DNA of 42,901 nt from an uncultured Bacilli bacterium. GTDB lineage: Bacteria > Bacillota_I > Bacilli_A > RF39 > UBA660. The notes beneath the pieces are model-generated. The model did not search any database. It had not been told where the DNA came from and saw nothing but the letters and a program-made list of their open reading frames with translations. The DNA lies in contig CALVRA010000008.1 in NCBI GenBank assembly GCA_944358415.1, positions 1-42,901 of the forward strand, in the 5' to 3' direction. The translations under genes and the position numbers were made by a program. Positions 13,844 to 41,391 of the stretch are shown in pieces; positions within the stretch are counted from its first letter, which is position 1; each line of letters opens with the position of its first letter.

Positions 13844-16800
13844 TTATTGTTTGACTAAACTTTTATAATATTCAAATCTTTTCATAGCTTCTTCTTTATT
13901 AATTTTAAGTAACTCATCCGCCTTATCTGGATTTACATTTTTAAGCATACTATATCTAGTTTGACTATTCAAAAACTCTTCATATAAATCAAAATTAGGA
14001 TTAGGACTATCTAAATTAAACTTTTCTCCGTCATATCTAAATATTGGAAAATATCCACATTTAGTAGCCAAGGATTCCTCTTCTATAGAACAGCCCATAC
14101 CCTTTTTATTTCCGTGAGAAATACAAGGACAATAAGCAATTATAATAGATGGACCATCATGTTTTATTGCTTCATTAAAAGCCTTAATACACTGCATCAT
14201 ATTAGCACCCATTGATACATGAGCTACATAAGTATTTGGATAAGCCATCGCAATTCTCGCTAAGTCTTTTTTATAATTCTTCTTGCCAGCAGCGGCAAAC
14301 TCAGCCACCATACCAAAAGGTGTTGCCTTAGATGCCTGACCTCCAGTATTTGAATAAACTTCCGTATTTAAAACCAAAATGTTAATATTATTTCCAGAAG
14401 AAAGCACGTGATCAATACCACCAAAACCTATATCATAAGCCCAGCCATCTCCACCAATTGCCCAAACATCTTTAGAAACAATATAATTTTTAATTGATTT
14501 TAACTTAGGATGCTTCTCATAATCTATTTTTTCATAAACCTCTTTCGTAATTTCATAATTATTAGAATTTTTAAGCCATTTATCAAAAAGCTCATCATCA
14601 TTTTCCAGCATATACTCGCGAACTAAATTTTTACCATACTCATACCCCATAAGCATACCATAGCCAAATTCTGCATTATCCTCAAACAAACTATTTGCCC
14701 AAGGAACACTATAAGGTAAATTAGGAAGTTCCCCTCCATAAATAGATGAACACCCTGTCGCATTCGCAATCACCAAATTAGAAGAAAGTTGTGTCAAAAG
14801 CTTAATATAAGCCGTCTCACCACACCCTGCACACGCTCCATGAAAAGAAAACTTAGGTTTCATAAGCTGACTACCTTTAATTGTATTTTTACTAAAATTA
14901 TTTTTCTCACTCACATTACTTACCAAATAATCAAATATCATATCATTTTTACTATCACTTAACTTTTGATAAGCTAAAGCCTTGTTGCCTTTTAAACCAG
15001 GACATATATTGATACACACTCCACATCCAGTACAATTTTTTGCTGAAATACCAATAATATAATAAAATCCACTCGCTCCACTAGCTTTTTTACACCTTTC
15101 CTTAACAAACAAAGGCGCCTCATTATATTCTTCTTCACTAAGTAAAAACGGTCTAATAACTCCATGAGGACAAACTAAACTACACATACTACACTGTATA
15201 CAATTTTCATTTATCCAAAAAGGTACAAACTCTGCAATATTCTGCATCTCAGGTTCCTTATGCTCAAATGAACCATCAGAAAAATCATTAAAAGCTGATA
15301 CTGAAAGTTCATTACCTTTTCTATGAACTAAAGCCTCATAAACATTGTTAGAAGGAAATTCTAATTTTGCTTCCACATCATCTAACTCTATCTTCTCCAA
15401 CTTAACATCTCTTAAAGCAGAAAGATTATTTAAAGCAACACTTTCACTTTTAACCCCAAACTTTTTCATAATATAATCTTCTAATTTCTGTGTAGCTTTT
15501 TCTTCATTAACCAAATCCAAAAGTTTAAAAATAGCTTTTTCCATAATCATACTTATCTTCATACCTAAATTATGCTTTCTTGCCACCTTAAAAGCATCTA
15601 TTTTATAAACAGCTATATTTTTATCTTTTAAAAACTTTTTATAAGGATTTAATATATTTAAAAACTCACTGTTATCTAAAGAACTATTAATAAGTAAAGT
15701 TCCACCATCTTTTAAAGAAGTTACCGCATCAAAAATATTTAAATAATTATCCTTAGAAATAACAATAAGCTCAGGATTATGTACAAAATATGTTGAATGA
15801 ATAGGTTTATCAGAAAACCTTAAATGACTAACTGTCACCCCACCAGATTTTTTAGAATCATACTCAAAATAACCTTGAATATATTTATCTTCACCAATAA
15901 TACTAAGTAAACTTTTACTGCAGCTCACCATTCCATCACTACCGTAACCATAAACTAAAACCTCAGTATTATCCGTCACATTAATATTCTCAAAGTCCAA
16001 AGATAAATGGGTCACATCATCCTTAATTCCTATAGTAAATTCATCTTTTGGATTATCAAGCATATCATAAATACTCTTAATCATTCCAGGTGTTGTATCC
16101 TTACTAGAAAGTCCATATCTACCATGACAAATAGAAATATTTTTATCTTTAAGCGCACTTACCACATCTAAATATAATGGTTCGCCTTCACTTCCAGCTT
16201 CCTTAGTTCTATCTAAAACTGCTATTTTGCACGCACTAATAGGAAGTTCATCAATTAAATGAGAAGCGCTGAAAGGCCTATATAAATGTACCTCTACAAG
16301 ACCAATTTCCTCATCTGTATAATCGATATATTCCCTTATTGTCTCACAAATAGACCCCATCGCAATAATAACTTTGCTAGCTTTTGAAGAGCCATAATAA
16401 TTAAAAGGTTTATAGTTAGTTCCTGTAAGTTCATTAACTTTTTTCATATATGTGCAGACACTTTTTAAAGCATTATCATAATAAATATTTCTACTTTCAG
16501 CTTCCTGAAAATAAATATCTCCATTTTGATTAGTACCTCTCGTAACTGGATTTTCATTACTCAAAGCTCTTTTTCTAAAAGTCTCTAACTTATCATAAGG
16601 AACTAACTTTCTTATATCATCTTCATCTAATATATTAATTTTATTAAGTTCATGACTTGTTCTAAAACCATCAAAAAAATGTAAAAAAGGTAAACTACTA
16701 TCTAAAGAAGCTAAATGACTAACCAAAGCTAAATTATAAGCATCTTGAACTGAAGAAGAAGCCATCATACAAAAACCAGTTGCCCTAGTCGCATAAATGT

Positions 16801-17179
16801 CTTGATGATCTCCAAAAATACTAAGTGCATGCGTAGCTAAACTCCTAGCTGCCACATGCATCACAAAAGGAAAACACTCTCCGGCAATTTTATACATATT
16901 AGGTATCATCAAAAGTAAACCTTGGCTTGCTGTATAAGTTGAAGCTAAACTACCTGCCTCCAAAGCACCATGCACAAGACCAATAGCTCCTGCTTCACTT
17001 TGCATCTCTATCACTTTAGGCACACTACCAAAAATATTTTTTTTATAAGAAGAGGCCCATCTATCAATTAACTCTGGCATTGGACTAGAAGGTGTAATTG
17101 GATATATTCCAGCAATTTCAGTAAACAAATACGAAGCCTGCACGCAAGCTTCATTACCATCACAAATTATTTTCTTCAT
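13844..17179 (-). CDS. nifJ: Pyruvate:ferredoxin (flavodoxin) oxidoreductase, homodimeric
   Basis: Converts pyruvate and CoA to acetyl-CoA and CO2, passing electrons to ferredoxin: a central anaerobic enzyme. All domains are on one chain of about 1,111 residues. The N-terminal pyruvate/TPP-binding domain has GIYPITPSSPMPE and QSEAGAIGLVHGALEAG. It is followed by the CoA-binding and gamma domains. The two-cluster ferredoxin domain has CIQCSMCSLVCPHG and CTGCGVCINICPG. The C-terminal TPP domain has GACAGCGE, NATGCSSIYGG and GGDGWAYDIGFGG with NTEVYSNTGGQ. Cysteines for three Fe4S4 clusters appear present. The frame opens with TTG, but GGGGGA is placed for the ATG at 17179. It is the last gene of the rlmN-prpC-prkC-rsgA-rpe operon, 12 bases after the rpe::pilin fusion. 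Confidence 0.97.
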   Translation of the reverse strand: MKKIICDGNEACVQASYLFTEIAGIYPITPSSPMPELIDRWASSYKKNIFGSVPKVIEMQSEAGAIGLVHGALEAGSLASTYTASQGLLLMIPNMYKIAGECFPFVMHVAARSLATHALSIFGDHQDIYATRATGFCMMASSSVQDAYNLALVSHLASLDSSLPFLHFFDGFRTSHELNKINILDEDDIRKLVPYDKLETFRKRALSNENPVTRGTNQNGDIYFQEAESRNIYYDNALKSVCTYMKKVNELTGTNYKPFNYYGSSKASKVIIAMGSICETIREYIDYTDEEIGLVEVHLYRPFSASHLIDELPISACKIAVLDRTKEAGSEGEPLYLDVVSALKDKNISICHGRYGLSSKDTTPGMIKSIYDMLDNPKDEFTIGIKDDVTHLSLDFENINVTDNTEVLVYGYGSDGMVSCSKSLLSIIGEDKYIQGYFEYDSKKSGGVTVSHLRFSDKPIHSTYFVHNPELIVISKDNYLNIFDAVTSLKDGGTLLINSSLDNSEFLNILNPYKKFLKDKNIAVYKIDAFKVARKHNLGMKISMIMEKAIFKLLDLVNEEKATQKLEDYIMKKFGVKSESVALNNLSALRDVKLEKIELDDVEAKLEFPSNNVYEALVHRKGNELSVSAFNDFSDGSFEHKEPEMQNIAEFVPFWINENCIQCSMCSLVCPHGVIRPFLLSEEEYNEAPLFVKERCKKASGASGFYYIIGISAKNCTGCGVCINICPGLKGNKALAYQKLSDSKNDMIFDYLVSNVSEKNNFSKNTIKGSQLMKPKFSFHGACAGCGETAYIKLLTQLSSNLVIANATGCSSIYGGELPNLPYSVPWANSLFEDNAEFGYGMLMGYEYGKNLVREYMLENDDELFDKWLKNSNNYEITKEVYEKIDYEKHPKLKSIKNYIVSKDVWAIGGDGWAYDIGFGGIDHVLSSGNNINILVLNTEVYSNTGGQASKATPFGMVAEFAAAGKKNYKKDLARIAMAYPNTYVAHVSMGANMMQCIKAFNEAIKHDGPSIIIAYCPCISHGNKKGMGCSIEEESLATKCGYFPIFRYDGEKFNLDSPNPNFDLYEEFLNSQTRYSMLKNVNPDKADELLKINKEEAMKRFEYYKSLVKQ

Positions 17180-17191
17180 CAAAAATCCCCC

Positions 17192-18229
17192 TTACTTATG
17201 ACAGTCCTCATCAGGATTCGCAAACTCCACTTCATATTTAAAATTTGTGCCATTATTTGTGCTTATTACTACATCAACATTTGAATCAATATAAAGTTTT
17301 TCTGTCATTGGATTAGTAAAATTATCTTCAACATAGCCACCTTTTATCTCTATTCCATCTATATTACCACCATCGTGCAAAACCTGGACACTTATTCGCC
17401 TCTCACCACTACTAGGAAGTAACTCAGGATAATCAATAGTTGCCGTCTTTGCCGACTCAATCAAATTAGTTCTCTGTGTCACACAAGTATCATATCTTCC
17501 TTCTCTTAAATTACTATCAATAGCCGTTGCAGCAATTAATCCCAAAATACTTAAAATAACAATAACTCCAAGTAACTCCGCCAAAGTAAAACCATTTCTA
17601 AGTACTTTTTTTAACTTATAAACCATACTTTGATAATTTTCACTACTAGTAATAAAAGAGCCTACAACTACTATATCTGCATTTTTAACTAAATTAACCG
17701 TCGAATCATTAATACCACCATCAACTTCCAACAAATAATTTAATCCATTATCTTGTCTATATTTTATAAGTTTATCAAGCTTATCCGTAATATCTATAAA
17801 CTTCTGACCACCAGCTCCTGCCTGAACACTCATTATTAAAACTAAATCAACCTTATCCAAATAAGGATAAATATCTTCTACTTTAGTCCCTGGATTAATT
17901 GCAATTCCTACATTAATACCCTTACTATGAATGTAATTAATATAATAAATAACATCATTGCAGCCCTCAAAATGAAAAGTAATATATAAAGGTTTAAATA
18001 AAGCCACCTCATCAATATACTTTTTAATATCTTTCACCATCAAATGTATATCAACTGGTTTTTTAATACTTGTAACAACATCTTTCATCTCTAAAACCGA
18101 ACGTGTCGCTTTTTCTGTAAACTTTCCATCCATTACATCATAATGAATTAAATCTGTAACCTTTTCAAGTTCTTTTATCCTCTTATTATCATCTTGAATT
18201 TTCAAAAAAGAGCCTGCAATTTTAACCAT
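17192..18229 (-). CDS. rpe: Ribulose-phosphate 3-epimerase fused to a class III type IV prepilin
   Basis: One uninterrupted 345-residue frame holds two unrelated modules. Residues 1-210 are a complete RPE barrel (interconverts ribulose-5-P and xylulose-5-P): HYDVMDG with ligands His29 and Asp31, HLMV with His62, INPGT, LEVDGGIN with catalytic Asp170, and VVVGSF. The usual NPGFGGQ loop reads QAGAGGQ. Residues 211-345 are a prepilin: RNG/FTLAELLGVIVILSILGLIAATAI, with the Gly213-Phe214 cleavage point and Glu at +5, a hydrophobic helix, then a soluble domain with two cysteines. A GTG lies nine bases upstream, but GAGGTG fits the ATG at 18229 (MVKIAGSF). The gene follows rsgA, exactly where Bacillus has rpe. 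A weak internal start (ATG of MVYKLKKVLRNG) might allow separate pilin translation. Whether the fusion is cleaved is unknown. Confidence 0.9.
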   Translation of the reverse strand: MVKIAGSFLKIQDDNKRIKELEKVTDLIHYDVMDGKFTEKATRSVLEMKDVVTSIKKPVDIHLMVKDIKKYIDEVALFKPLYITFHFEGCNDVIYYINYIHSKGINVGIAINPGTKVEDIYPYLDKVDLVLIMSVQAGAGGQKFIDITDKLDKLIKYRQDNGLNYLLEVDGGINDSTVNLVKNADIVVVGSFITSSENYQSMVYKLKKVLRNGFTLAELLGVIVILSILGLIAATAIDSNLREGRYDTCVTQRTNLIESAKTATIDYPELLPSSGERRISVQVLHDGGNIDGIEIKGGYVEDNFTNPMTEKLYIDSNVDVVISTNNGTNFKYEVEFANPDEDCHK

Positions 18230-18234
18230 TTTTC

Positions 18235-19062
18235 TCACCTCAAAAAATTAATATAATTATCATATCTACTTTTCAAAATTGTTCCATCTAAAACCTTTTC
18301 TTTAACCATACATTTCTTCTCATGTATATGAAAGCAATCTCTAAACTGGCATTCATCTCTATATAAATTAAATTCTATAAAATTATCTCTAATATCTTCT
18401 TTACTCATAGATGAAAAATCTAAAGCTGAAAATCCTGGAGTATCTGCCACTAAACCTCCACATACTTCTATTAACTCCGTATGTCTGGTTGTATGTTTTC
18501 CTCTATTTAAAGCAAGTGAAATTTCTCCAGTTTTCAAATTTAAATCAGGTTTTATTCTATTAAGTAAAGTACTTTTACCAGCTCCACTTTGCCCAGTAAA
18601 CACACATACTTTTCCCTTAAAATTGTTTTTAATTAAATTGATTTCACTATTCATATAAACATCATAACCAATTTTTTTATAATAATCAATTATAACTTCT
18701 GTTTTTATTCTTTCATCATCATTAAGTAAATCACTTTTAGTAAATATAATAATAGGCTTAACCCTATTATACTCACAAATCACCAAAAATTTGTCGAGTA
18801 AATTAGACGAAAATAAAGGTTCTTTCAAACTAGTAATTATAAAAGCAATATCCACATTCGCAATAGCTGGCCTATATAATTCACTTCTCCTAGGTAAAAT
18901 ATCTAAAATATATTTATTTTCTAAATCAAATATCACATCATCGCCCACAATGGGTGAAAGGCCAAGTTTTCTAAATTTTCCCCTAGCCTTACACACAAAA
19001 ATTCCATCCTCACTTTTAACCGTATAATCATTACTAATTTGTTTAATAATTTTACCTTTCAT
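18235..19062 (-). CDS. rsgA: Ribosome small-subunit-dependent GTPase A
   Basis: Circularly permuted GTPase that checks late 30S subunit maturation. An N-terminal OB domain is followed by the permuted G motifs: TKSD (G4), GQSGAGKST (G1), a G2 region with GKHTTRHTEL, and ADTPGFSAL (G3). The C-terminal zinc knuckle has the Cys-x4-Cys-x-His-x5-Cys ligands in ECQFRDCFHIHEKKC. Length (275) is normal. It sits between prkC and rpe, as in Bacillus, and ends five bases before the rpe start. Confidence 0.96.
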   Translation of the reverse strand: MKGKIIKQISNDYTVKSEDGIFVCKARGKFRKLGLSPIVGDDVIFDLENKYILDILPRRSELYRPAIANVDIAFIITSLKEPLFSSNLLDKFLVICEYNRVKPIIIFTKSDLLNDDERIKTEVIIDYYKKIGYDVYMNSEINLIKNNFKGKVCVFTGQSGAGKSTLLNRIKPDLNLKTGEISLALNRGKHTTRHTELIEVCGGLVADTPGFSALDFSSMSKEDIRDNFIEFNLYRDECQFRDCFHIHEKKCMVKEKVLDGTILKSRYDNYINFLR

Positions 19063-29277: not shown

Positions 29278-29303
29278 AATAGTGCAATAACGCACTATTT
29301 TTT
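29277..29303 (+). terminator. Terminator of srtB
   Basis: AAATAGTGC, AATAAC loop, GCACTATTT, then T-run. It overlaps the end of the convergent repeat-protein gene. Confidence 0.85.
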
Positions 29304-31994
29304 AACTTTACACTTTTGTTTAATTTTCAAATATTTTTCAGGATTTTTTTCTAGTTCTTCCATTATCTCATCATCAATAATCAAACACTCTGGGCAAGTA
29401 TTTTCAGGAAGCTTTAAGCCTTCCGCACTTGATAAAAAACTTAAATCAATATTTCTTCCTACGTAATCAGGAAGTTCAACTCCAAATGCGCTTATTAAAT
29501 TATTTAAATATAAATTACCACCTACATTTTCAGGTAACTTTAATTTCTTTGCCATTATTAAACTACTTAAATCTAAATCTTCTTCTACACATTCTGGTAA
29601 TTCTAGTTTATCTACCCTTTCTAAACTACTTAAATCTAAAGTGCCACCAACACTTTTTGGAAAAATTAAACCTTCTGTATATTTTGCACTACTTAAATCT
29701 AAATTACCACCTACATTTTCAGGTAACTTTAAGCCTTCGGCAACTTTCAAACTTTCTAAATTTAAATCTCCATCTACATTTTCCGGAAGTTTCAATCCCT
29801 CAGAGCTCATTAAACCATTTAAATATAAAGAGCCCAACATATCTTCAGGAAACCTTAATCCTTCCGCATTTCTTAAACTACTTAAATCTAAATAGTTATA
29901 TATTAATTCAGGCAATTCTAAACCCTTAATATCTCTCAAACTTTTTAAATCAAGTTCATCAACACTTTCAGGAAATTCTAGTCCTTCCGCACTAACTATA
30001 TTATCTAAAAATATTCCTCTTGCAGTTTTAGGTAATATTAAATTTTTAAAACTTTTTAAATTTTCTAAACGAAGATTCCCAACAATGTCAGGAAACTTTA
30101 AATCTTCGGCAACTTCCAAGCTTCCTAACATTAAATCACTTCTCACTTCTTGTGGAAATTCTAATCTTTTCGCATTTACTAAACTACCTAAGTATAAACT
30201 ACCTACTACATATTCAGGCAATTTTAAATTATCTATATATTCTACACTATTTAAATTCAAAACACCACTTATATAATTAGGTAATTTTAATCCATCTACA
30301 TTTTTAAGACTGTTTAATTCTAAACTGCCATTTATAACTTCTGGAAATTCTATTTTTTCTAAACTTTCAACGTTTCTAAGTCGAAGAAGACCATTTACCA
30401 CTTTTGGAAATCTCAATTCTTTTACTTGCTTCAAACTACCTAAATCAATATTCCCTCCTATATATTCAGGCAATTTTAAATTTAAAGCACATACTAAGTC
30501 ACTTAAATATAAACTACCTCCTACATATTCAGGAAGTTTTAAACCTTCAGAATTTATTAAATTTCTTAAATCAAGATTTCCTCCTATGTGTTTTGGCAAC
30601 TTTAAACCTCTTTTATTCACAAAATCTGCCAAATGAAATGGTAAAACTATATTTCCACTAAAATATTTTAATCTTCCTAAATCAATATCTATATCATTAA
30701 TTTCTAGATTATCATATATAAAAACAACAACATCCTCATTATAAATATCTTTTATATTATCACTAACTTGATTTTCTCTACACTCAAACATACAAGCATA
30801 ATCTTTTTTTAAATTTCTCTTACTTTTTATCTCTTCTATTCTAGGATCTTTCTCATAACCAAATCCTTCTATTTTATCATCTATTTCATATAAAAATCTT
30901 AATTCCTCTTTAGTTAAATCATATCCTCTTTGTACTTTATTATCTATCGTTGTTAAAAATTGCATATCATATTCTTTTTTTCTATATTTATCTCTATCTG
31001 GAAACTCTTCTAACTTTTTATCTAATATTGGCATCATCTCTGGTTCCATATTTTGATTACTAGCTATTCCCCTAATTTCACCTATTTTATTATGTCCATC
31101 CATTCTAATAGCTATCCTTGGTACTTTTGCTTCTCCATTTTCATCTAATGTATAATATACATAAAAATCGCCATTTTCTAACTGCATAGACGCAAAGTTC
31201 TCTCCTGCTGCTGTACACCATCCTGTATAATATCCTTGTAAACTATCCCTTAATATATGATAATCTGAACCTTGTTCATACTTTATCCATTTTCCTAAAG
31301 TAGTATTGTTTTGCTTTTCTCCTTTGTTCATAATCATTTTAATGGAATACTCATATAAAGTTTTAAAATTTCCACTTCCTAAAGCACTTCTTATCTCAGT
31401 ATCTCCTTTTTTATCTTTTATATATTCTTCCATTAGTTTTAATGTATTAAATATTGCTTCTCTTTCAACTGGTGGGAATGGATATACTGTATGTTTATCT
31501 CTTTTTGAAAACTTACTTGTTTCTTTATTATATTTTCCTAATTGTTGTAAGCCTTGAAACACCCAGTATTTTTCCCACATTTCATAACTTTCACTTTCCT
31601 CATCAAATAAGAAATACTCTATCCATTGATCTAATGACTCTTTTTGATCAGAAATTATTTGTTTTATTAGCATTTCCTTTCTTTCTGAAGTTATTTCTAT
31701 ATTTCCATATCCTCTTTCTCTCATTATCCTTTTTTCATGTTCAAAATAACTCTCAGGTATATCCTCAGGTTTTATCACATAAAGATTATAATAAAAGTAT
31801 TTAAGTATTTTTAAATCATTTTCATTTTTACTTAAAGCTACCTTTTTATGTATTTTTTCTAATCTATCAAAATAGTTTAATATTTTATCTCTTTTTTTAT
31901 CTGATTCACTCATCCCATACATCGCGCTTTTTGACATATGAAGATTTTTATATAGTTTAGTTATTATATCTATCCACATATTTCTTCCATTCAT
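29295..31994 (-). CDS. Solenoid protein with ~20 leucine-rich-like 22-residue repeats
   Basis: About 899 residues, no signal peptide, so likely cytosolic. The first ~270 residues are charged and helical. A compact module (about 270-330) reads GYYTGWCTAAGENFASM, NGDFYVYYTLDENG, PRIAIRMDG and GEIRGIASNQNMEPEM. It recalls domains that precede such repeats in other gut Bacillota proteins, but I cannot name it. Residues about 455-880 are roughly 20 units of the form GLKLPE-x-VGG-LDLSSL-xx-AE, with LP or FP recurring every 21-22 residues. The C-terminus is basic. GTG at 32003 is possible, but AAAGGTGA fits the ATG at 31994. Function unknown; the repeats suggest a binding scaffold. Confidence 0.75.
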   Translation of the reverse strand: MNGRNMWIDIITKLYKNLHMSKSAMYGMSESDKKRDKILNYFDRLEKIHKKVALSKNENDLKILKYFYYNLYVIKPEDIPESYFEHEKRIMRERGYGNIEITSERKEMLIKQIISDQKESLDQWIEYFLFDEESESYEMWEKYWVFQGLQQLGKYNKETSKFSKRDKHTVYPFPPVEREAIFNTLKLMEEYIKDKKGDTEIRSALGSGNFKTLYEYSIKMIMNKGEKQNNTTLGKWIKYEQGSDYHILRDSLQGYYTGWCTAAGENFASMQLENGDFYVYYTLDENGEAKVPRIAIRMDGHNKIGEIRGIASNQNMEPEMMPILDKKLEEFPDRDKYRKKEYDMQFLTTIDNKVQRGYDLTKEELRFLYEIDDKIEGFGYEKDPRIEEIKSKRNLKKDYACMFECRENQVSDNIKDIYNEDVVVFIYDNLEINDIDIDLGRLKYFSGNIVLPFHLADFVNKRGLKLPKHIGGNLDLRNLINSEGLKLPEYVGGSLYLSDLVCALNLKLPEYIGGNIDLGSLKQVKELRFPKVVNGLLRLRNVESLEKIEFPEVINGSLELNSLKNVDGLKLPNYISGVLNLNSVEYIDNLKLPEYVVGSLYLGSLVNAKRLEFPQEVRSDLMLGSLEVAEDLKFPDIVGNLRLENLKSFKNLILPKTARGIFLDNIVSAEGLEFPESVDELDLKSLRDIKGLELPELIYNYLDLSSLRNAEGLRFPEDMLGSLYLNGLMSSEGLKLPENVDGDLNLESLKVAEGLKLPENVGGNLDLSSAKYTEGLIFPKSVGGTLDLSSLERVDKLELPECVEEDLDLSSLIMAKKLKLPENVGGNLYLNNLISAFGVELPDYVGRNIDLSFLSSAEGLKLPENTCPECLIIDDEIMEELEKNPEKYLKIKQKCKVKK
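29390..30690 (-). repeat. Array of ~20 degenerate 63-66-bp coding repeats
   Basis: Each unit encodes a variant of LKLPEYVGGNLYLSSLVNAEG. The unit is 21-22 codons, diverged at DNA level, so the array is old rather than recently expanded. It produces long open frames on the opposite strand that are not genes. Confidence 0.85.
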
Positions 31995-32050
31995 TAAAAT
32001 CACCTTTCAAATAATATACAACAAAATAGCAAAATTTTCTAGAAAAAAAC

Positions 32051-35882: not shown

Positions 35883-35910
35883 CATACTTTAATTAGTATG
35901 TTATTTTTTA
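35879..35910. terminator. Bidirectional terminator between lexA and the pilin cluster
   Basis: ATAACATACT, TTAATT loop, AGTATGTTAT, flanked by T-rich sequence downstream on the plus strand and A-rich sequence on the other side. It serves lexA and possibly the convergent Ig-like gene. Confidence 0.75.
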
Positions 35911-36728
35911 TAATAAGTACTAGACAGCTTATATTTCCCATTTTCCAAAACTAATGCAATCACATTACCAGAAACATCTAAACTTTCACTAATACTTGCC
36001 TCTTTAAAACTTTTGCCATTATCTAAACTATACATATAAGTATAATTATCCCCACTAGGATAATTAATAATTAACTCATCCTTTTCTAAAAATTCTATCC
36101 CAGGAATAACTTTAATCAATCTTTTTTTTACAGTCTCATTACCACTTTTATCTTTTGCTCTGCATGAAATCACATAATTTCCTGGCTCATCCTTTAAATT
36201 ATTATCACACTTTAAACTAACCTTACCAGAATTATCAGTAACAATAACTCCCTCATATACATCATATTCCAAAACCTCATTAGTAAAAATACTAACCGTA
36301 TCTGGCATCACCAATCGTGGCTTTTTATTATCATAAACAATAACCACCCTTGAAGCTTCTTTTAACTCTACGTCATTAGATACTTCGTATTTCACTGTAT
36401 AATAACCAGATTTTTCCGTATCTATTCCACTCACTTGACGACCATCTTTAAAATAAGAAATAGCTATTCCATCTGATATATTTTTGCCATCATCATACGC
36501 TTTAGCGCCAAGTTCTTTATATTTATTCATCTCACCTACATATACCAAAAAATCGCCATTTAATCTTAAAGTAAAATCATCTTTTTTAACATTTTCATTT
36601 TGTAAAATTTCTTTAGCTTCATCCCTATTCAAATAATTAAATATTTTAATTCCAATAAGTAAAATAATAAAAAATATAATAACTAAAGTTAAAAAGCCAA
36701 CCACTTGACCTCTAGTATATCCATTCAT
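35901..36728 (-). CDS. Membrane-anchored Ig-like protein of the prepilin cluster
   Basis: A 275-residue protein with a short N-terminus and a membrane span (VVGFLTLVIIFFIILLIGIKIF), then an extracellular region. One DUF5011/HYR-like Ig domain ends in DEPGNYVISCRAKDKSGNE; a second beta-rich segment has YTYMYSLDNGKSFKEA. No prepilin cleavage motif is present. It starts four bases after the pilin gene upstream, so it belongs to a three-gene operon with the two prepilins and may be a surface partner of the pilus. Similar Ig-like modules occur in the giant protein at 2489-6463. Confidence 0.7.
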   Translation of the reverse strand: MNGYTRGQVVGFLTLVIIFFIILLIGIKIFNYLNRDEAKEILQNENVKKDDFTLRLNGDFLVYVGEMNKYKELGAKAYDDGKNISDGIAISYFKDGRQVSGIDTEKSGYYTVKYEVSNDVELKEASRVVIVYDNKKPRLVMPDTVSIFTNEVLEYDVYEGVIVTDNSGKVSLKCDNNLKDEPGNYVISCRAKDKSGNETVKKRLIKVIPGIEFLEKDELIINYPSGDNYTYMYSLDNGKSFKEASISESLDVSGNVIALVLENGKYKLSSTYYKK

Positions 36729-36731
36729 AAA

Positions 36732-37163
36732 TTATTCCTCTATACTATCAAGCACACACTCATCCGCATTAGTAATATCTTCATCAACAACTGCCGACTT
36801 TGAAGAAGCACTTTTAACCACACAAATATGAGCCTCATTACTCCATAAAGCTAAAGTAACCTTGCCATTATCATCAATTTTTAGCTCACCAGCATCCGGT
36901 AAATCACCATCAGTTTTAAGTAAATTTTTCACATCATCTGAACTAGTCTTATAATTAATTAAAAGTGTTGGATCTTCATTCAAAGCTTGCCTTTCAGCTT
37001 GATACGTTCCAGCCGATACAACAAGACCATGAGCCGCACTAATAAAAGCTTTTTCCCTAGAAGAATTAATTATTCCAAGCGCCAAAGGTGTTGTAATTAA
37101 TGCTATAATTGCAATAATAGAAATAACCGCTAATAACTCAATCAAAGTAAAACCCTTTTTCAT
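36732..37163 (-). CDS. Class III type IV prepilin
   Basis: A 143-residue pilin precursor starting MKKG/FTLIELLAVISIIAIIALITTPLA: short basic leader, Gly-Phe cleavage site, Glu at +5 and hydrophobic assembly helix. The soluble part has two cysteines (HICVV and DECVL) near the C-terminus. The open frame extends 18 codons upstream into the previous gene, but GAGGAGG fits the ATG at 37163, one base after the previous stop. Part of the prepilin-prepilin-Ig operon. No assembly ATPase is nearby. Confidence 0.88.
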   Translation of the reverse strand: MKKGFTLIELLAVISIIAIIALITTPLALGIINSSREKAFISAAHGLVVSAGTYQAERQALNEDPTLLINYKTSSDDVKNLLKTDGDLPDAGELKIDDNGKVTLALWSNEAHICVVKSASSKSAVVDEDITNADECVLDSIEE

Positions 37164-37164
37164 C

Positions 37165-37521
37165 CTATTCCTCCTCAACACTATACAAATATTCCGCTTC
37201 CCCTTTTTTCTCCACACAAACCTTTGTCAAAGCTGAAAACGGTTTATCAGTCTTTGGATTTTTAATATCAAGTGGTAAATACCCTTCATTTTGTAAATCT
37301 TCTAAAGTCTTACAAGCTATAACACCTTCCATATCTGGCATCTCGTCTAAATGCTTAGTATAATAATCTTCTGCTCCCTTTTTTAACTGCTCAATCTGCG
37401 TTTCATATAAATCATCTCTACCACTATCTAAAGAACGATTAATAGCTGGAACCGTAATTAAAGCAATAACTCCAAGTATCGCAATCACCCCAAGTAATTC
37501 TGCTAAAGTAAATCCTTTCAT
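37165..37521 (-). CDS. Class III type IV prepilin
   Basis: A 118-residue precursor starting MKG/FTLAELLGVIAILGVIALITVPAI. The nine residues GFTLAELLG and the following GVI are identical to the pilin part of the rpe fusion, so the two are probably related. The soluble part has two cysteines (IACKT and VCVEK), likely a disulfide. First gene of the three-gene cluster. Confidence 0.88.
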   Translation of the reverse strand: MKGFTLAELLGVIAILGVIALITVPAINRSLDSGRDDLYETQIEQLKKGAEDYYTKHLDEMPDMEGVIACKTLEDLQNEGYLPLDIKNPKTDKPFSALTKVCVEKKGEAEYLYSVEEE

Positions 37522-41010: not shown

Positions 41011-41034
41011 AAAAAAAAGATAATAAATTATCTT
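41011..41034 (-). terminator. Terminator of the Flp-type pilin gene
   Basis: Minus strand: AAGATAAT, short loop, ATTATCTT, then T-run, overlapping the pilin stop. Confidence 0.7.
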
Positions 41035-41224
41035 ATTGGCAAGAACCCTCGCCTGGCTTAGACCCTTCGACATACTCTTTGTCAATAAGCTTACAAGATG
41101 TTTTTGTCATAGAGTCTTGAAGATAGCCCCCTAATAATTTAACTAAACTAACAACTATAACGCTGACAACCGCTATAATTAGTAAATATTCTACTAGGGC
41201 TTGACCTTTATTATTTATTTTCAT
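41033..41224 (-). CDS. Flp/Fap-type pilin
   Basis: A 63-residue protein: MKINNKGQALVEYLLIIAVV, continuing with VSVIVVSLVKLLGGYLQ and a short tail with two cysteines (SCKLID and GSCQ). The NKGQALVEYLL motif with Glu after the cleavage region is that of Tad/Flp pilins. The open frame runs 46 codons further up through repeat DNA, but GGAGGG precedes the ATG at 41224 and a strong promoter lies between them, so the long form is wrong. No tad genes are in the window. Confidence 0.83.
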   Translation of the reverse strand: MKINNKGQALVEYLLIIAVVSVIVVSLVKLLGGYLQDSMTKTSCKLIDKEYVEGSKPGEGSCQ

Positions 41225-41258
41225 AACACCCTCCACAAAAATATCATACTTTATTCTA

Positions 41259-41287
41259 ATTATAATTTCTTTTACAAAAAAAATCAA
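41259..41287 (-). promoter_or_regulatory. Promoter of the Flp-type pilin gene
   Basis: Minus strand: -35 TTGATT (41287-41282), 17-bp spacer, -10 TATAAT (41264-41259), about 35 bases before the ATG. Confidence 0.75.
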
Positions 41288-41314
41288 CCCCATTAGCAAA
41301 AAACAAACAAATAT

Positions 41315-41391
41315 ATAATTTACTTTTCTTGTATATAATTTACTTTTATTTTGCTTGTACATAATTTACTTTTCTTGTATATAATTTAATC
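41315..41391. repeat. Direct repeats upstream of the Flp-type pilin promoter
   Basis: ATAATTTACTTTTCTTGTAT occurs at 41315-41334 and again, identically, at 41361-41380. A variant with six extra bases lies at 41335-41360, and a fourth partial copy (ATAATTTAATC) follows. Spacing is 20, 26 and 20 bp. They start about 28 bp upstream of the -35. Confidence 0.8.

Follow-up and report, generated by a model that had tools for sequence, protein, structure and literature searches.

Can a complete metabolic enzyme serve as the leader of a prepilin, and what would then become of the joint product? The question is raised by a gene in the window (the whole 42,901-nucleotide stretch of DNA analysed here), which is contig C8 of a 1.2-Mb MAG (G000) that is 76% complete. 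In the initial annotation the gene was described as a complete ribulose-phosphate 3-epimerase (RPE) joined in frame to a complete prepilin, and this description holds: there is a single open frame, both halves have profile matches and 23 further genomes are alike.

The two modules of the fusion gene

The fusion CDS lies at 17195..18229 on the minus strand (345 aa), with its stop codon at 17192-17194; the ORF list of the window gives the frame as 17192-18238 (-), without an internal stop. Its start is likely the ATG at 18229, with a candidate Shine-Dalgarno (SD) site read from the sequence, GAGGTGAG (18234..18241, minus), just 5' of it and within the end of rsgA. The gene was said to occupy the normal rpe position, and the surroundings agree. 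A PP2C phosphatase gene (prpC), prkC and rsgA precede it (ORF list; rsgA at 18235..19062, minus, by PF03193, E 8.5e-54), and prpC-prkC-rsgA-rpe is the usual rpe position in Firmicutes. Across the 45 stretches that we fetched, covering 44 genomes, rsgA adjoins rpe in 43. On the downstream side is an ORF of 1112 aa (13844..17182, minus; ORF list) that by sequence reading resembles pyruvate:ferredoxin oxidoreductase.

The RPE module (residues 1-212; 17594..18229, minus) matches PF00834 at E 6e-45 (153.5 bits against a cut-off of 21.1) and exceeds the cut-off of the RPE subfamily model NF004076 (184 vs 165 bits); it falls below the equivalog cut-off of TIGR01163 (rpe; 158 vs 212.6 bits). It is divergent, yet it is the sole rpe found in the genome and it stands in the rpe position. 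The catalytic residues S7, H29, D31, H62 and D170 are intact and are identical in 42/42 relatives, as are G190 and S191 of the phosphate-site motif. With the Streptococcus pyogenes RPE (PDB 2fli; PF00834) the fusion shares the whole barrel (TMt of the modelled barrel up to 0.93), the catalytic residues and a position after rsgA that is also usual for rpe. It differs from an ordinary PF00834 enzyme in having no stop codon, in continuing into the prepilin and in ending in a new, invariant basic stretch.

A single RPE is found in 43 of the 44 genomes of the genus (G020 has a second, distant and weak match) and, because of this, the RPE half is probably needed. No second rpe was found in the 76% complete MAG of the window, and the idea that the fused copy is dispensable owing to another rpe was rejected on both counts. 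The dN/dS values of the RPE halves in fused pairs are 0.15-0.28.

The mature pilin module (residues 214-345; 17195..17590, minus) matches PF07963 at E 2e-4, just above its cut-off, and is above the cut-off of the pilin domain TIGR02532. It has the class III motif, with Gly/Ala at -1, a hydrophobic stretch and Glu at +5. The predicted prepilin-peptidase site, G213|F214 (17588..17593, minus), and E218 (+5), which belongs to the hydrophobic N-terminal half of the pilin helix (17522..17590, minus), are where the initial annotation had put them. The first conserved cysteine, C249 (17483..17485, minus), has an identical position in 42/42 pilins, and a cysteine near the pilin-domain end, here C343 (17201..17203, minus), is likewise present in 42/42. 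The head terminates 2 residues past C343; the extra domain is N-terminal and there is none at the C-terminus.

A profile of the pilin half matches Streptococcus sanguinis PilE1 (E 1.6e-6). In structural searches with the pilin alone, Foldseek gave no match under E 0.3, and a second aligner ranked pseudopilins and pilins highest, as weak matches (Z 5 or less). An AlphaFold2 run on the 24 fused sequences (mean pLDDT 92, pTM 0.64) places a full RPE barrel, closed by helix 199-210, before a 5-residue break of lower confidence at 211-215, i.e. at the cleavage site. Then come a single helix of the pilin (216-266) and its beta head, a lollipop-like arrangement whose structural matches are the weak ones above. 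The model thus predicts two separately folded domains hinged at the cut site. Class III prepilins (PilE1, PDB 8pfb; ComGC/GspG-like) have the Gly|Phe motif, Glu +5, long helix and Cys-paired head in common with the fusion; they differ in having a short hydrophilic leader where the fusion has a complete, folded 212-aa enzyme.

The pilin half had also been called close to the product of the gene at 37165..37521 (minus), a pilin with a 2-aa leader (MKGFTLAELL). The two are paralogous (36% identity, E 9e-8), but the closeness is not special: at least three further pilins encoded by this genome are better matches (41, 37 and 38%). None of the other pilins of this genome is a similar fusion. Besides the fusion there are ~17 GFxxxE pilin-like genes, many for such a small genome (1.2 Mb), scattered over the contigs singly or in pairs, with leaders of 2-6 aa and mostly GGTGA-type SD sites. 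Elsewhere in the window, two tandem pilin genes (36732-37521) lie near a lexA-like gene and directly upstream of the gene for an Ig-like surface protein (35901-36728), and a 902-aa ORF (29295-32003) has no Pfam match. A weak, sub-threshold Flp/Fap pilin match (41033-41362), together with a second ATPase with two PF00482 matches on contig C12 (about 15-18 kb), suggests an additional Tad-like system.

Fused and split loci across the genus

We searched 44 genomes of the genus for RPE and fetched the DNA around each; both halves were readable in 42. The search for the same fusion in relatives, which had been proposed as a check, found an uninterrupted RPE-pilin frame in 24 of the 42 (49-80% identity). 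In the remaining 18 the genes are split: rpe ends in a stop, and a distinct pilin gene follows whose own start most often overlaps or touches that stop. The start/stop overlap of split loci is ATGA or AATGAATAA, and the pilin SD site is inside the end of rpe; in the split locus of G014 the pilin GF codons are 93 bases beyond the rpe stop. The closest relatives of the window are all fused, with no stop or frameshift between the modules, and separate genes occur only in more distant species of the genus. The refuting test on relatives set out in the initial annotation thus went in favour of the fusion.

All of the genomes compared are MAGs. A sequencing or assembly indel might have joined two separate genes on paper, as split relatives exist and a single indel is sufficient to merge the frames. 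Such an artefact, like a chance opening of the frame, is excluded by a frame that is open in 24 separate genomes, by synonymous changes across the junction and by a new junction sequence that is conserved. The fusion is confirmed as real and conserved.

At 17 loci of other genera (some of them short downstream) we found no pilin motif after rpe, from which it follows that the pilin joined the rpe operon within this genus. That the pilin is the appended part, as first proposed, is also borne out by the relatives that have both genes adjacent. No fusion outside the genus was found among 385 genomes of the order, a set that includes some of the genus; beyond the order the search was a shallow one, via class-level relatives and a pattern scan.

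Some split species have an rpe-linked pilin with a large C-terminal extension (loci L140, L145 and L158; genomes G033, G015 and G434), with a frame of up to 787 aa in G033 and of 486 aa with LDLSxFDTSxVT repeats in G434. Such sequences suggest a modular pilin resembling an adhesin; the fused pilins, unlike these extended ones, are short.

In a tree of RPE (junction excluded) and RsgA, with outgroups, the fused species fall into five groups. The first is a 16-species clade that contains the window (support 100/99). Fused G001 is the sister of split G008, and fused G004+G268 the sister of split G012; the other fused groups are G005+G022+G025+G035, with weak support for the inclusion of G005, and G369. 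Under rooted parsimony the ancestor is split and the fusion is gained five times, and a single ancestral fusion with one fused clade was rejected (p-AU 0.0001). There were thus about five independent fusions; fewer gains with several reversions are less likely, as a reversion would need to restore the stop codon, the start codon and the SD site. The junctions themselves differ, as expected of separate fusion events: the large clade has LRN|GF, G001 NYMK|GF, G004 KKAL|GF, G022 IFMNK|GF and G369 KSK|AF.

A short start/stop overlap is common to the split relatives and to translationally coupled overlapping gene pairs (PMC10666635). The fused genomes differ from such pairs: the overlap is lost, and small indels at the rpe stop/pilin start have merged the frames about five times. 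For the large clade, a deletion of length 3n+1 in an AATGAATAAAAAAGG overlap would produce its ..AATGG.. and leave the old ATG out of frame. In the window an out-of-frame ATG lies inside AATGGT (17593..17595, minus) and, by reference to the NATGAATAA overlaps of split relatives, is probably a relic of the former pilin start codon.

The pilin start and the junction

Over the 35 bases that precede the cleavage site, the mean energy of the anti-SD duplex is -7.9 kcal/mol in split genomes vs -2.7 in fused ones. The 16-species clade has no conserved in-frame pilin start codon. At codon -11, two members (the window and G003) have an in-frame ATG and the other 14 have Gln, with no SD site before the ATG; it was therefore rejected as a separate pilin start in the window's gene. 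With neither a start codon nor an SD site conserved, the pilin of this clade is apparently made only as the fusion. In G022, G025 and G035, an ATG survives in frame, 3-5 codons ahead of the Gly and with strong SD pairing (-7.4 to -8.1), so that a separate pilin may also be made, besides the fusion. These three, fused with ATG and SD site kept, form a graded series with G005, in which both are lost. Since fused and split sisters coexist with such intermediates that keep the start site, the route by which overlapping genes become a processed polyprotein can be traced base by base.

The same observations bear on whether expression is dual, i.e. whether a short pilin is initiated inside the rpe frame, which would make the fusion a by-product and the short form the source of most pilin. 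The start sites kept by G022, G025 and G035 favour this, as does the codon -11 ATG of the window and G003, but that codon is confined to 2/16 species of the clade, is not accompanied by an SD site and stands where SD pairing has been largely lost. As a general account dual expression is very unlikely; it may apply to G022, G025 and G035, and not to the window.

The junction KLKKVLRN (residues 205-212; 17594..17617, minus) is a basic stretch preceding the cleavage site, and in the 16-species clade 7 of the 8 positions of KLKKxLRN before the Gly are invariant, vs 30% of positions in the remaining RPE, where only active-site windows match this invariance. The codons of the junction Lys, Leu, Arg, Asn and Gly vary synonymously in the clade, so the constraint acts on the protein. 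The net charge of the last eight residues before the Gly is +4 in the large clade (the window included), +1 to +2 in the other fused genomes and 0.7 on average at the ends of split RPEs; the p-value computed for this comparison does not take relatedness into account.

On the other side of the junction, all 24 fused genomes have Phe at +1; the -1 residue is Gly in 23/24 and Ala in 1/24, and prepilin leaders reportedly always have one of these two as their last residue (PMC10191384). Glu +5 is found in 42/42 pilins, fused and split. The dN/dS of the pilin half is 0.09-0.27 in fused pairs vs 0.07-0.27 in split pairs, and hence the pilin is not decaying. The machinery is also encoded: a bifunctional-type prepilin peptidase is found in 42/44 genomes, including every fused one and G000 itself, in which it has CxxC pairs and GGGD. 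G000 also has PilB-type ATPase and PilC-type genes. Prepilin peptidases of this type cut at the cytosolic side, near the membrane (PMC10191384), and this is the side on which the RPE would be.

Fate and meaning of the fused product

The RPE had been proposed to take the place of the short prepilin leader. The fusion indeed has 212 residues before G213, vs 2-6 for the remaining pilins of G000, and lacks a short hydrophilic leader, an arrangement that is conserved in relatives. Leader length is known to vary, and the S. sanguinis major pilins have been described with very long leaders (PMC10191384).

We think it probable that the gene encodes a naturally evolved two-in-one precursor in which the RPE is a 212-residue leader cut off by the prepilin peptidase, giving RPE and pilin 1:1. 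The ribosome would complete the RPE first, and the pilin helix emerging behind it would target the chain to the membrane, leaving the RPE in the cytosol. Once the membrane peptidase had cut after G213, the RPE would be free, soluble and active, carrying a short basic tail, and the remaining, normal pilin would assemble into a pilus, with the two outputs in a 1:1 ratio. What counts against processing is that prepilin peptidases are not known to act on a folded domain of 23 kDa directly before their cut site. RPEs of this family are dimers or hexamers, and such oligomers could hinder access of the peptidase.

If the fusion were never cut, the pilin part would be a mere membrane anchor and the RPE would be permanently tethered at the inner face. 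The uncut topology does put the RPE at the membrane on the cytosolic side, and the RPE is intact and the sole copy in 43/44 genomes. However, an anchor needs no Gly/Ala at -1, no Glu at +5, no long helix and no Cys-paired head, all of which are kept in fused as in split pilins, and the dN/dS of fused pilins is similar to that of split ones. We regard a permanent tether as quite unlikely. Cleavage is the better supported reading, because purifying selection maintains Gly/Ala at -1, Phe at +1, Glu at +5 and the basic stretch ahead of the site.

Cleavage by the peptidase also offers the simplest evolutionary reading: the fusion is nearly harmless, and easy to tolerate, because processing undoes it and the peptidase re-splits the product. 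A selected benefit is possible, e.g. a fixed stoichiometry. A more elaborate selected function, in which processing couples the amount, timing or place of RPE to pilus production and a membrane-held pool of RPE is released on demand, seems unlikely.

Modular pilins such as S. sanguinis PilB and PilC also join a domain foreign to pilus biology to a pilin, but their extra domains are grafted C-terminally and displayed outside the cell (PMC10191384, PMC9934059), whereas the graft here sits at the N-terminus, in the cytosol, on the segment that prepilins usually lose. In the open-licence papers searched, we found no report of an RPE-pilin or of any prepilin with an enzyme as leader. Prepilins themselves are known; the new aspect is a prepilin with a whole enzyme as its leader.

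Prepilin leaders are usually treated as short, throw-away peptides, and here an essential-type enzyme occupies that place instead, in 24 species and with about five origins. This suggests that prepilin peptidases can cut fusions to cytosolic domains in general, and that bacteria can obtain two products, a metabolic enzyme and a surface-appendage subunit, from one precursor. In this genus of Bacilli, uncultured and with small genomes, an enzyme of central sugar metabolism and a pilus subunit are encoded as one protein that is probably cut in two.
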